In this document: one piece after another, positions 27,216-32,056 of the stretch
Position numbering within the stretch: position 1 is the stretch's first letter
Layout: each line of letters opens with the position of its first letter
NCBI GenBank assembly: GCA_902795065.1
Contig: CADBJR010000005.1
Coordinates: 1-57,884 of the forward strand
DNA: 57,884 bases
Direction: 5' to 3'
Origin: an uncultured Coriobacteriaceae bacterium
GTDB lineage: Bacteria > Actinomycetota > Coriobacteriia > Coriobacteriales > Atopobiaceae
The notes under the pieces: generated by a model
The model's input: only the letters and a program-made list of their open reading frames with translations
The model's database searches: none
What the model was told of the DNA's origin: nothing
Made by a program: the position numbers and the translations under genes

Positions 27216-27572
27216 GCGCGAAGCGGGCCGGACGACCGCGGGTGCTTCGGCACATGAGGAAAGTCCGGGCTCCACAGGGCAGGAAGCTGGCTAACGACCA
27301 GGCGGGGCGACCCGACGGAAAGCGCCGCAGAAAAGAAGACTCCCGCTGCCCGCGCGAGCGGGTGAGAGAAAAGCTGAAACGGTGGTGTAAGAGACCACCA
27401 GCATCCTGGCGACAGGGTGGCTTGGCAAGCCCCTTCCGGAGCAAACGCAAATAGGAGCGCCATGGTGTGGCCCGCACTGCGCTCGGGTTGCGCGCTCGAG
27501 GCCTGCGGCAACGCAGGTCCTAGATAAATGGCCGTCCACGACAGAACCCGGCTTACAGGCCCGCTTCGCACC
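27216..27572 (+). ncRNA. rnpB: RNase P RNA, bacterial class A
   Basis: The catalytic RNA of RNase P, about 355 bases. Universal blocks are present: GAGGAAAGTCCGGGCTCC (27254-27271) near the 5' end with CACAGGGCAG after it, and AGAACCCGGCTTACAGGCCC near the 3' end. The 5' GCGAAGCGGGCC pairs with the 3' GGCCCGCTTCGC to form stem P1, and the stem is followed by CACC and T6, which ends transcription. It processes the 5' ends of tRNA precursors. The length fits a type A fold. Confidence 0.95.
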
Positions 27573-27673
27573 TTTTTTCATCGGGAAACGTTTCCATCCT
27601 GCATGCATCCCTAAAATCAAATTCGAAACATGGTATCTTTTCCGTATCGACCGCGCGGCCTCAGGGGGTGCAT

Positions 27674-28564
27674 ATGGCGTTCCTCGGCGTCGACATCGGA
27701 AGCTCCACCACCAGGGCGGCCCTCATCGACGAGGACTTCCATATGCTCGCGCTGGCCAACGGCCCCACCCACATCGATGACAACTTCCAGACCACGGTCG
27801 ACGACGTCTACGCTGCCTCGCGCAAGGCGCTCGACCAGGTCGGATTCCGCTTCGGGGCCATCGATGCCATCTGCATCAGCGTCTCGGGCGTGGCCGACGA
27901 CAAGACCGGCCGCGTCTTCTCCCCCGTCCTCCACTGGATCGACCCCATGCCCGTGCGCACCATCGTGCACAGGTACGTCTCGGTTCCCGTCTTCGTATCC
28001 AACGACGCGACGGCCGCGGCCATCGGCGAGGCCCATTACGGCTCGGGCATGTCCTACGGGCGCTTCGCGCTCCTCCGCATGGGCACGCTCATCGAAATCG
28101 CCATGGCCTCCGACGGCGCGCCGTTCGAGAGCGACCTCCTGCCCGCCCAGGTCGCGACCGAGGGCGAGTTCCTCCTCGAGGCGCACGAGCTGCGCGCGCA
28201 TGAGGAGGGCGAGGACGGCATCGACCTCTCGGGCATCGACCTCTCGGGCATCGGCCTGGGCATGATCCGCTCGTCGCAGGTCACCGAGGAGGCGCGCCGC
28301 GGGAACCCCATCGCCATCGCCGCCATGGACTGGCTCGCCGAGCGCATCACCGAGGGGCTCGTCGAGACGTGCTGCGACGCCTGCCCCGAGGCTGCGATCA
28401 TCTCCGGCGCCACCCAACGCGACCAGCTGAGCCTGGGCAAGCTCATCACGCGCAAGCTCGCCGAGACGCGCTCCGCCATCGCGGGCATCCCCATCGAGTG
28501 CTCCGTGCTGGGCAACGACGCCAAGGCGTTCGGCGCGGCGATCATCGCGCTGCAGCGCTCGTAG
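27674..28564 (+). CDS. ROK family protein (sugar kinase or regulator-like)
   Basis: A 296-residue protein; the start at 27674 follows an AGGGGGT site. The N-terminal phosphate-binding loop is FLGVDIGSSTTRAALID, then ISVSGVADDKTG and SNDATAAAIGEAHYG (the catalytic Asp lies in NDATAAA). These are ROK features. The usual cysteine zinc motif CxCGxxGCxE is not visible, so it is an atypical ROK protein; a short repeat (IDLSG twice) sits around residue 190. Sugar specificity and whether it phosphorylates at all are unknown. It is the last gene before the SOS-like promoter at 28597; no terminator is obvious between them. Confidence 0.72.
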   Translation: MAFLGVDIGSSTTRAALIDEDFHMLALANGPTHIDDNFQTTVDDVYAASRKALDQVGFRFGAIDAICISVSGVADDKTGRVFSPVLHWIDPMPVRTIVHRYVSVPVFVSNDATAAAIGEAHYGSGMSYGRFALLRMGTLIEIAMASDGAPFESDLLPAQVATEGEFLLEAHELRAHEEGEDGIDLSGIDLSGIGLGMIRSSQVTEEARRGNPIAIAAMDWLAERITEGLVETCCDACPEAAIISGATQRDQLSLGKLITRKLAETRSAIAGIPIECSVLGNDAKAFGAAIIALQRS

Positions 28565-28596: not shown

Positions 28597-28651
28597 GAAC
28601 ACTTGTTCTTGTCCACCGCTTGGCCTATAGTTGCAATCGAACACGTATTCG
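28597..28651 (+). promoter_or_regulatory. Promoter with two LexA-box-like palindromes
   Basis: GAACACTTGTTC (28597-28608) is a perfect GAAC-N4-GTTC palindrome, the core of the Gram-positive/actinobacterial SOS box. It overlaps a -35 TTGTTC (28603-28608), which lies 17 bp from a -10 TATAGT (28626-28631). A second box, CGAACACGTATTCG (28638-28651), matches the CGAAC-N4-GTTCG consensus with one mismatch and covers the start of transcription. The promoter leads into the gene at 28670. Confidence 0.65.
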
Positions 28652-28669
28652 GTTGCAGGGAGGCCGGCC

Positions 28670-29653
28670 ATGGACGGAGATGCCGTACTCGCCATTGCGG
28701 ACGAGCGAGATATCAGGGGCAGGATCTACATGCTGCGCGGACGGCAGGTCATGCTCGATTCCGATCTCGCGGAGATCTACGGCTACACCACAAAAGCCTT
28801 CAACCAGCAGGTCAGGCGCAACATCGAGAAGTTTCCCGACGACTTCATGTTCCAGCTGACGGAAGACGAGCTTTCAATCCTGTCTTCAAGGTCACAAATT
28901 GTGACCTTGAATTCCTCGGGAAATAAGCGGGGCGCGAACATCAAGTACCTCCCCCACGCATTCACCGAGCAGGGCGTCTACATGCTTATGACCGTGCTCA
29001 AAGGCGATCTGGCAACGCGTCAGAGCATGGCGCTCATACGCCTTTTCAAGAACATGAAGGACTGTTTGGCGGACAGCCAGGCTTTTCTCAGCTCGCAGGG
29101 CTATCAGACGATAGTCGAGAAGCTCGAACATCATGAGCAGGTACTCGACGAGCATGGGAAAAGGCTGCTGGAACTCGAGGGCACCTTCGACGGGACCGAG
29201 GCGCGTGGCGAGCTCCTTCTGCTTCGCAACGAGCGCTTCACGGCGGATCTGGCTTTCCAGAGGATCTATGGACAGGCGCGCTCGAGCATCATCCTCATCG
29301 ATGACTACATCTCATCGAAAACGCTCCAGCATCTGGCTCATGCCACGGCAGGAATACCCGTGAGCATCATCAGCGACAACAGGGGTGCCGATAAACTGCG
29401 TCTCCTCGAGTTCCAAGACTTCTCGGCAGAGTATCCGGGACGAAGGGTCTCCTTTGCAAAATCATGCGGCATGGTGCATGACCGCTACATCGTCCTCGAT
29501 TTCGGCACCGATGCGATGCGCGTGTTCCATTGCGGAACCAGCAGCAAGGATGCTGGAAGCCGCATGACGAGCATAACCGAGCTTCGCGACACCGCAATCT
29601 ATGCGGAGGCCGTTTCCAACCTGCTCGCCAATCCCCCGCTTACCTTGAGATGA
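28670..29653 (+). CDS. ORF6N domain protein with C-terminal PLD-like segment
   Basis: A 327-residue protein; the start at 28670 follows GGGAGG. Residues about 10-110 form an ORF6N domain (RGRQVMLDSDLAEIYGYTTKAFNQQVRRN, then FPDDFMFQLT), a DNA-binding module common in phage and mobile loci. A coiled-coil-like helix follows (about 150-185). The C-terminal part has ILIDDYISSKTL and VHDRYIVLD with the H270-x-R-x4-D277 pattern of phospholipase D-like proteins (Lys changed to Arg), then FHCGTSSKDAG. It may be a DNA-damage-induced nuclease or regulator; catalysis is uncertain because of the Arg. It is the first gene of a unit with the two DNA-metabolism genes downstream; the gap to the next start is 8 bases. 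Confidence 0.75.
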   Translation: MDGDAVLAIADERDIRGRIYMLRGRQVMLDSDLAEIYGYTTKAFNQQVRRNIEKFPDDFMFQLTEDELSILSSRSQIVTLNSSGNKRGANIKYLPHAFTEQGVYMLMTVLKGDLATRQSMALIRLFKNMKDCLADSQAFLSSQGYQTIVEKLEHHEQVLDEHGKRLLELEGTFDGTEARGELLLLRNERFTADLAFQRIYGQARSSIILIDDYISSKTLQHLAHATAGIPVSIISDNRGADKLRLLEFQDFSAEYPGRRVSFAKSCGMVHDRYIVLDFGTDAMRVFHCGTSSKDAGSRMTSITELRDTAIYAEAVSNLLANPPLTLR

Positions 29654-29661
29654 GGCCGGCC

Positions 29662-31047
29662 ATGGACACCTACACCAAGCTGGGCATCCTCGCCGATGCC
29701 GCCAAGTACGACGTGGCGTGCACGTCCTCGGGCGTCGAGCGCGGACCGCAGGCGGGCAAGCTCGGGGTCGCCTCGGCGGCCGGCTGCTGCCACGCCTTCA
29801 CCGCCGACGGCCGCTGCATCACGCTGCTCAAGGTGCTCCTCTCCAACGCCTGCAGCTACGATTGCGCCTACTGCGTCAACCGCCGCTCGGCCTCCGTGCA
29901 GCGCGCCACCTTCGAGCCGCGCGAGCTCGCCGAGCTCACGGTCGGCTTCTACAAGCGCAACCTCATCGAGGGGCTGTTCCTCTCCTCGGGCGTCCTCGGC
30001 ACGCCCGACGCCACCTGCGAGCGCATGGCCGAATGCCTGCGGATCCTGCGGCAGGAGCTGCGCTTCAACGGCTATGTCCACGCCAAGGTCATCCCCGGCG
30101 CCTCCCCCGAGCTCATCGATACGCTGGGCCGTCTCGCCGACCGCCTCTCCGTCAACCTCGAGCTCCCCAGCCGGGGCTCGCTCGCCCTCCTCTGCCCCGA
30201 CAAGGACCCCGCGCAGATCGCCCGTCCCATGGCGCAGATACGCGCGGTGCGCGACGAGGAGGCCGCCCGGCTGCTCCCCGCGGGAACGGAGGCCGCCCGA
30301 AAGGCGTTGGAACGCCCCCAGAGGGCCTACGACGGCTCCGCTCCCCTGTCGCCCGGCATGCGCGGCCAGACGCTCACCCTGCGCCCGCGCGCGGCTGTGA
30401 GGGCTTCCAAGCGCGCCTTCGCCCCCGCGGGCCAATCCACACAGCTCATCATCGGCGCCACGCCCGAGGACGATAACCACATCCTCCAGCTCTCGCGCGC
30501 CCTCTACGAGCGCTACGACCTCAAGCGCGTGTTCTTCTCGGCCTACATCCCGATGATGGATGACCCGAATCTGCCCGATAGCGTCACGCCCGTGCCCCTG
30601 CGGCGCGAGCACCGCCTCTACCAGGCCGATTGGCTCATGCGCTACTACGCCTTCTCGCCCGACGAGCTCGCAACGCCCGAAGCGCCCTGGCTCGACCTCG
30701 AGGTCGATCCCAAGCTGGCATGGGCGCTCGCCCATATCGACCGCTTCCCCGTGGAGGTGATGGACGCTCCGCTCGAGCTGCTGCTGCGCGTGCCCGGCAT
30801 CGGGCCCGTGGGGGCTCGGCGCATCATACGTGCGCGCCGGGCGGGGCGCATCACGTTCGACGACCTCAAGGCGCTCAACATCACGCTCAAGCGCGCGCGG
30901 CACTTCCTCACGTGCGCCGGGAAGCGCGACCCCGCAAGCCCGCTCGACCCCGAGCTCATCAGGCGGAAGGTGGTGGAGGATGCCCAGGCCAGCGCCTACA
31001 ACAGCGCGCGAAGGCGCATCGAGGCGGCACAGCCCCGCCTCTTCTGA
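29662..31047 (+). CDS. Radical SAM DNA modification/repair protein (TIGR03916-like)
   Basis: A 461-residue protein; the start at 29662 follows a weak GATGAGG site 8 bases past the previous stop. The radical SAM cluster is CSYDCAYC with Cys64, Cys68 and Cys71, in the CxxxCxxC form. Other blocks are GLFLSSGVLGTPDATCERM and GYVHAKVIPGASPELI. The C-terminus has a helix-hairpin-helix (LLLRVPGIGPVGARRII), a DNA-binding element. This arrangement matches the family described as putative DNA modification/repair radical SAM protein, normally found beside a TIGR03915 DNA-metabolism protein, as here. Substrate lesion and chemistry are not known for the family. Confidence 0.83.
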   Translation: MDTYTKLGILADAAKYDVACTSSGVERGPQAGKLGVASAAGCCHAFTADGRCITLLKVLLSNACSYDCAYCVNRRSASVQRATFEPRELAELTVGFYKRNLIEGLFLSSGVLGTPDATCERMAECLRILRQELRFNGYVHAKVIPGASPELIDTLGRLADRLSVNLELPSRGSLALLCPDKDPAQIARPMAQIRAVRDEEAARLLPAGTEAARKALERPQRAYDGSAPLSPGMRGQTLTLRPRAAVRASKRAFAPAGQSTQLIIGATPEDDNHILQLSRALYERYDLKRVFFSAYIPMMDDPNLPDSVTPVPLRREHRLYQADWLMRYYAFSPDELATPEAPWLDLEVDPKLAWALAHIDRFPVEVMDAPLELLLRVPGIGPVGARRIIRARRAGRITFDDLKALNITLKRARHFLTCAGKRDPASPLDPELIRRKVVEDAQASAYNSARRRIEAAQPRLF

Positions 31048-31126
31048 CGCCGCGCTCGCGGCCGCCATCCTCCCCGACGGCCCCGACACGGTCGACGCCG
31101 CCGTCGCCTCCCTGCGCCGCGCATGC

Positions 31127-32056
31127 ATGAACGGCCGCAGCGCCCTGCTCGCCTGCACCTCCACGCTCGAGGGGGTGCTCGCCGCCATTGGCATCGCCTA
31201 CCTCGCCCATGTGGACGAGGAGCACGTGCGGCTCGTGGACGCCGCCTGCGCGCAGCCGCGCCTCGACGAGAACGTCGTGGGTCCCTTCCCCCTCGACGAC
31301 CGCACGCTTGCGCTCGCGGGGCGCGTATGGCGCGGCCTCAGCCTCCATGTCGCGACGGGCTGCCCCCGCTCGCGGGAGAACCGCTGCCCCGGCACCTGCG
31401 CCGGCTCGTGCGTCTCCAAGGTCGCCTACGCCTGCGCGGCCGACGACCCGTCGGTACCCGAGGCGGTGCACCGCTACGTGCGGCTCGCATTCAAGGAGGG
31501 GCCCGCGATCGCCAACATGATGTCCAACCCGGCGGTCGTGAGGCTCGACAGCCTCGCGCGCCTCGTGCTCAACGAATGCGAGCGCACACGGCAGTTCGCG
31601 CGTTTCTCTCACCTGGCCGACGGATCGTACCTCGCGTCGTTCCGACCCGCGGCGGACACCGTGCCGTTCGTGGCGGGCCATTTCGCTCAGCGCATGGGCC
31701 CCGAGCGCTTCTGCCTCGTCGACCCGGTGCACTGCGTCGCGGCCGTCCACGAGGCCGGGCAGAAGCGTTGCAGGATCATCCGCCTCGACCAGACCCTCGC
31801 CGACGAGCTCGCCGCACGCGACGACTTCGCCGCCGACGAGCAGTACGTGCGGGCCATGTGGAAGCGCCTCTACGACGGGCTCGCGCTCGACGGGCGCGGC
31901 AAGGAGGAGCGGGGCTACGACCTGCGCGCCAGCTGGATGCCCAAGCGCTTCTGGGGCGACCTGCCCGAGCTCGACCCGCGCAACGGCAATCCAGGCGCCC
32001 ATGTGCCGAAACGGTATCAGGGCGCCCGCAAGGACGCCCTGAAGGATGGGTCCTGA
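31127..32056 (+). CDS. TIGR03915-family probable DNA metabolism protein
   Basis: A 309-residue protein from the ATG at 31127. The family usually starts with a short strand like the SALLACTSTLEGVLAAIGIAYL seen here. An ATG at 30980 in the same frame abuts GTGGAGG but lies in shadow sequence within the previous gene, so the start is uncertain. The body carries VPFVAGHFAQRMGPERFCLVDPVH and YVRAMWKRLYDGLALDGRGKEERGYDLRASWMPKRFW, the conserved blocks of the DUF4130 region. Partners of TIGR03916 radical SAM proteins in many bacteria are this family, sometimes fused to uracil-DNA glycosylase, supporting a DNA-repair role. It ends in front of the palindrome cluster at 32093-32158. Confidence 0.75.
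   Translation: MNGRSALLACTSTLEGVLAAIGIAYLAHVDEEHVRLVDAACAQPRLDENVVGPFPLDDRTLALAGRVWRGLSLHVATGCPRSRENRCPGTCAGSCVSKVAYACAADDPSVPEAVHRYVRLAFKEGPAIANMMSNPAVVRLDSLARLVLNECERTRQFARFSHLADGSYLASFRPAADTVPFVAGHFAQRMGPERFCLVDPVHCVAAVHEAGQKRCRIIRLDQTLADELAARDDFAADEQYVRAMWKRLYDGLALDGRGKEERGYDLRASWMPKRFWGDLPELDPRNGNPGAHVPKRYQGARKDALKDGS

Follow-up and report, generated by a model that had tools for sequence, protein, structure and literature searches.

Two LexA boxes very probably control a predicted DNA-repair gene pair whose promoter appears to have been captured by an inserted ORF6N gene in a Coriobacteriaceae genome

Three consecutive genes of an uncultured Coriobacteriaceae bacterium, an ORF6N gene followed by the pair TIGR03916/TIGR03915, stand behind a promoter with two SOS-box-like palindromes, raising the questions of whether LexA governs the repair pair and whether the phage-like ORF6N protein belongs with it. 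We examined the locus within its window (the whole stretch analysed, 57,884 nucleotides), which forms the fifth contig of a draft genome of 2.24 Mb (53 contigs, 3.5% contamination). The locus sits in the middle of this 57.9-kb contig, and the end of a ROK-family gene (27668-28564) precedes the promoter, as in congener G002; a class A RNase P RNA (27220-27571, + strand) lies upstream of the ROK-family gene. The promoter and the genes behind it are laid out as follows.

28597-28608, unstranded: LexA (SOS) box 1, GAACACTTGTTC, 0 mismatches, overlapping the -35
28603-28608, + strand: -35 element TTGTTC, aligned in three congeners
28626-28631, + strand: -10 element TATAGT, invariant in four congeneric promoters
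28638-28651: box 2 with its C/G flanks, CGAACACGTATTCG
28639-28650, unstranded: LexA box 2, GAACACGTATTC, 1 mismatch (G9 to A), after the -10
28670-29653, + strand: ORF6N gene, 327 aa, ORF6N domain (PF10543, E 3e-32) plus PLD-like C-terminal domain
29662-31047, + strand: TIGR03916, putative DNA modification/repair radical SAM protein (rSAM_link_UDG), 461 aa, 567.6 bits against a cut-off of 343.5
30980-32056, + strand: TIGR03915, putative DNA repair protein, 126.6 bits against a cut-off of 112.25

Both palindromes and a TTGTTC/TATAGT promoter with a 17-bp spacer are present where a sequence-only reading of this DNA had placed them. Box 1 and box 2 are 42 bp apart, about four helical turns, and box 2 falls at or just past the likely transcription start; the operator thus overlaps promoter elements both in the window and in the alignment with congeners. 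A simple promoter scanner left this promoter unflagged because TTGTTC is a weak -35. When the 105-bp intergenic region was shuffled, 0.1% of the shuffles produced an exact box, and none of 20,000 produced one together with a second box. Matches with at most one mismatch numbered 21 across the window (18.8 expected), and the exact motif occurred 18 times in the 2.24-Mb genome, compared with 46 occurrences of a backwards control pattern. Over-representation was rejected as a line of evidence: exact boxes are not enriched genome-wide, and the motif alone is therefore no proof.

The genome's own SOS genes are more informative about the identity of the motif. An exact box, GAACGGTTGTTC, lies 105 bp upstream of the HMM start of recA, and a further exact copy covers the start codon of the dinB-type polymerase gene. 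The lexA gene (G000:C1, minus strand) has four upstream boxes with one mismatch each (GAACACGTGTTT, GAACGTGTGTTT, AAACAGTTGTTC, and GAACATTTGTTT), all of which parallel the single mismatch of box 2. Boxes with at most one mismatch were likewise found at 36 of 36 lexA promoters examined in the order and at 29 of 30 recA promoters, 26 of them exact. On this promoter comparison, GAAC-N4-GTTC is the LexA box of this genome, and the operator in the window matches the box at its lexA and recA, where a different box would have spoken against the original proposal. No publication dealing with SOS regulation in Coriobacteriia turned up in our literature search. As a separate observation, this genome also has an exact LexA box ahead of a HigB-like toxin gene (G000:C10:71638-71649, L009), likely an SOS-controlled toxin-antitoxin locus.

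The repair pair itself scores above both curated cut-offs; the TIGR03915 gene overlaps the radical SAM gene, with an alternative start at 31123. Functional proof of DNA-repair activity for the pair was not found in the literature. TIGR03916 is present in 37 of 60 relatives, and we took conservation at orthologues as the decisive test of the boxes, counting those up to 130 bp upstream at the 29 other TIGR03916 loci with readable upstream DNA. An exact box occurs at 22 of these 29 promoters (0.03 expected from the same loci) and a box with at most one mismatch at 27 (1.2 expected from the same loci), with two or more such boxes at 25. An alignment of the window with its congeners places both boxes, the -35, and the -10 in the same columns: box 1 is identical in G001 and G003 and reads GAACGCTTGTTC in G002, and box 2 is aligned with GAACATGTATTC in all three.

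Because the boxes are kept at orthologous TIGR03916 promoters, the radical SAM/TIGR03915 pair very likely forms an SOS operon across the whole order, and the two boxes very probably place it under LexA control both here and in relatives. The proposal of LexA control over the pair is thus well supported, by the identity of the box and by its retention at orthologues, and loss of the palindromes from orthologous promoters, the outcome that would have counted against it, was not what we found. Induction of the operon by DNA damage would be the expected consequence. This amounts to strong comparative evidence that a poorly understood gene pair belongs to the SOS genes across this actinobacterial order.

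An alternative is that the palindromes are there by chance, or serve another regulator that favours GAAC-N4-GTTC, and the lack of enrichment across the window together with a genome-wide count below that of the backwards control would fit such an account. Against it, the same motif marks the genome's own lexA, recA, and dinB as well as lexA and recA across the order, and orthologous promoters retain it far beyond chance; we consider this alternative highly improbable.

The place of ORF6N in this operon is a different matter, on which a direct repeat around the gene bears.

28660-28675, + strand: left copy of the 16-bp direct repeat, GAGGCCGGCCATGGAC, RBS plus ATG GAC, start of ORF6N
29652-29667, + strand: right copy, GAGGCCGGCCATGGAC, RBS plus start of the radical SAM gene

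The two copies are exact and hold the ribosome site, the ATG, and the second codon; the right copy also completes the ORF6N stop codon, and the inserted unit measures 992 bp. In 2,016 control pairs of gene starts, shared runs spanning the ATG reached at most 13 nt, compared with 16 here. In congeners G001, G002, and G003, the site is empty and the same promoter runs straight into the start of the radical SAM gene; an ORF6N gene occupies this place at only one of 30 TIGR03916 loci, that of the window. Third-position GC content (GC3) is 0.73 in ORF6N compared with 0.92-0.95 in the neighbouring ROK and radical SAM genes. Terminal inverted repeats, as in an insertion sequence or transposon, were absent at 28660/29652, and no known transposase domain was found in the inserted unit. 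On sequence grounds, the ORF6N gene is horizontally acquired, and the promoter is originally that of the radical SAM gene, with ORF6N as an insertion.

Had ORF6N instead been an old operon member that relatives lost, a single mRNA for all three genes and the gap of 8 bp from the ORF6N stop codon to the start of the radical SAM gene would be readily understood. Its absence from all 29 other TIGR03916 loci, the three congeners included, its foreign base composition, and the flanking 16-bp direct repeat argue against such a history, which we regard as very unlikely. Arrival of the promoter and boxes together with the ORF6N gene could draw on the order's 27 ORF6N genes, 8 of which have an upstream LexA box (exact in 6; about 0.07 expected from the genome-wide motif rate), but congeners that lack ORF6N carry the same promoter before their radical SAM gene, making this origin extremely improbable. 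Insertion of ORF6N behind an existing promoter is the reading we retain. ORF6N is therefore associated with the repair pair through capture and does not form an ancient functional unit with it, given its occurrence at one locus in 30. The suggested link between the pair and a phage-like protein has to be read in this sense, and the suggested three-gene damage-induced unit survives in part: LexA boxes do stand on the shared promoter, but ORF6N joined late.

ORF6N genes at other loci provide a second independent case. In G061 (L223/L255, G061:C68), a LexA box and uvrA flank an ORF6N homologue (46% identity), which is preceded by a 63-bp duplicate of the uvrA leader, start codon, and first codons. 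Among 17 other uvrA genes examined, about 7 carry an exact or one-mismatch box at 84-150 bp upstream, relatives thus having boxes at a distance similar to that in G061, and the G061 gene appears to have taken over the SOS promoter of uvrA independently of the event in the window. At a Lachnospiraceae locus (L159), the beginning of ORF6N repeats, with slight divergence, the RBS and first 19 codons of the antitoxin gene that follows it. The three start duplications involve direct repeats only, of 16, 63, and about 85 bp. Thus, in two and possibly three cases, a phage-defence-type gene would have taken the promoter and start of another gene and left the target gene intact, and in two of them, the repair operon and uvrA, the captured promoter is a predicted SOS-controlled one.

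Neither feature extends to ORF6N genes in general. Clear start-codon duplication was seen at 3 of 88 ORF6N loci tested and was rejected as a rule; long repeats at L162 (tandem ORF6N), L163, L154, L176, and L213 show no clear involvement of the neighbour's start. SOS boxes were likewise rejected as a general trait, with an exact box at 1 of 76 ORF6N homologues from a scan of genome contigs, nearly all of them outside the order.

An unannotated structured leader RNA, absent from the window, was observed in 15 copies in 11 of 200 related genomes (L113/L240, L122/L244, L120/L251, L115/L245, L217/L242, L220/L253, L222/L241, L243, L246-L250, L252, and L254). It has the form GGYTG-hairpin-CCTAAC-hairpin-GGACAGCC, a three-way junction, and matches no Rfam family. 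A LexA box lies closely upstream of 14 of the 15 copies, and the genes downstream encode ORF6N, PD-(D/E)XK (PDDEXK_2) nuclease-like, MqsR-like, and other small toxin-like proteins. The CAGCC of this RNA has alternative pairings, either with the region of the ribosome site or within a terminator.

The ORF6N protein carries an ORF6N domain and is a full-length match to the PADLOC model PDC-S05, a single-gene phage-defence candidate, over residues 8-319 of 327 (E 1e-92); PDC-S05 is a phage-defence candidate by its PADLOC name only. In the AF2 model, blocks from residue 191 onward have a pLDDT of 88-97, with one block at 76, and the modelled C-terminal domain has the fold of the PLD superfamily, matching NucT, Zucchini, and PLDs with a target-normalised TM-score of about 0.5 for the single-domain ones. 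Two further features lie within the gene.

29477-29500, + strand: codons for HDRYIVLD, an HKD-like motif whose H, D, R, and last D are invariant in 33 homologues
28885-28911, unstranded: internal palindrome, TTCAAGGTCACAA-A-TTGTGACCTTGAA, perfect 13+1+13

An S-x-K-D motif downstream of HDRYIVLD is also invariant in the 33 homologues, so that the conserved pattern reads HxR(x4)D with SxKD after it; the predicted domain is termed "PLD-like" because the canonical HxK(x4)D is absent. A nuclease or defence activity of ORF6N would be consistent with these models. PDC-S05 is, to our knowledge, not known as an SOS-controlled system. The literature consulted describes neither an internal palindrome nor start-codon insertions for it.

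The internal palindrome is a general property of these genes. We compared 119 distinct ORF6N genes, drawn from viral contigs and several phyla, at the corresponding position: an inverted repeat pairing at 7 of 9 positions or better is present in 118 (25% of random segments from the same loci), and one pairing at 8 or better in 113 (4.5% of such segments); pairing is perfect (9/9) in 70. Perfect arms of at least 10 bp were found in 64 of 90 ORF6N genes and in 3 of 900 synonymous-codon shuffles, and in five genes the palindrome is read in another frame, on which counts we rejected protein conservation as its source. The arms covary (AGGTCAC, AGGTCGC, AGGTGCC, AAATCAC, GTGGTCAC, and others). The 34 unpaired cells comprise 7 G-U and 27 other mismatches, which is no G-U excess and disfavours an RNA hairpin. 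Covarying arms, the second frame, and the lack of a G-U excess therefore indicate a DNA-level site.

The commonest version of the palindrome has 16 copies in 100 related genomes, compared with none for the reversed control, and nearly all of these copies lie in or just outside ORF6N genes or their remnants. Some ORF6N genes have extra copies about 20-65 bp beyond their end or immediately ahead of their start. Loci with the internal palindrome include the window, L116, L141, L150, L198, L205, L275, L330, and others. Among the matches listed in a literature search, none dealt with palindromes in connection with ORF6N. Retention of a DNA-level palindrome across phyla and in two frames opens a direct experimental route to what this very common gene family does.

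Autoregulation by the ORF6N domain is the likeliest role for the palindrome, and a site for mobility would be the more novel one. As a layer added to the capture event and not an alternative to it, the ORF6N protein may bind the palindrome in its own gene (28885-28911) as a roadblock or autorepressor, coupling the repair genes to the ORF6N level. The family of the ORF6N domain is regarded as DNA-binding, and the near-universal, covarying palindrome in two frames without G-U excess, the extra copies just outside some ORF6N genes, and the very few copies elsewhere in the 100 genomes all favour this idea; the differing arms among homologues count against it. Alternatively, the palindrome may serve as a site of recombination or be targeted by the PLD-like domain. 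We put autoregulation forward tentatively, somewhat short of probable. A bolder possibility is that ORF6N-PLD (PDC-S05) genes are single-gene mobile elements of a new kind with an obligatory internal palindrome recognised by their own protein, which would insert at the translation starts of target genes by duplicating their 5' ends, take over promoter and start codon, and, in Coriobacteriia-like bacteria, repeatedly come under LexA; we judge this proposal unlikely.

For the locus as a whole, we hold it highly probable that both palindromes serve as LexA operators at the promoter of a putative TIGR03916-TIGR03915 DNA-repair operon, widespread in this order, and that an inserted ORF6N gene captured this promoter. 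LexA bound to box 1 would cover the -35 and LexA bound to box 2 the transcription start, and upon DNA damage RecA-stimulated self-cleavage of LexA would free the promoter. A horizontally acquired ORF6N-PLD gene would have inserted at the radical SAM start with duplication of 16 bp (RBS, ATG, and second codon), taking the promoter and start codon and leaving the radical SAM gene with a second copy of its own start. The radical SAM gene would now be second in a three-gene SOS operon, with ORF6N, radical SAM, and TIGR03915 proteins made from one mRNA.

Among known systems, the SOS-induced gene dinD of Escherichia coli offers a likeness by description: its protein is related to virus-type DNA-binding (Bro-N-like) proteins, but DinD differs from ORF6N in family and architecture, and dinD is a single gene, not inserted in a repair operon; the literature on DinD supplied background only. 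For the repair pair, the closest comparison involves COG4277, which we take to be the same radical SAM/HhH protein family as TIGR03916. The COG1573-COG4277 operon (UDG plus predicted repair protein) is reported to be SOS-regulated in Bacteroidetes, Verrucomicrobia, and Alphaproteobacteria, with a different LexA motif, e.g. CTAA-N5-TTAG in Bacteroidetes, and the text consulted does not describe an ORF6N insertion at that operon (PMC8565304). The partner of COG4277 in those phyla is UDG, whereas here it is the TIGR03915 protein. LexA control of such a repair operon is thus not new in principle, having been published for the UDG/COG4277 operon of other phyla.

The box in the window shares its GAAC-N4-GTTC core with actinobacterial and Gram-positive LexA regulons, such as that of Streptomyces venezuelae, where the LexA box is tCGAAC-N4-GNNCGa (PMC9380542). 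A radical SAM gene of that species, vnz_31145, is mitomycin C-induced and lies under a LexA ChIP peak; its product is described with thymine-lesion repair enzymes (PMC9380542). What appears new at the present locus is the insertion of an ORF6N gene exactly at the start codon of a repair gene, by which it would have captured a promoter predicted to be damage-induced.
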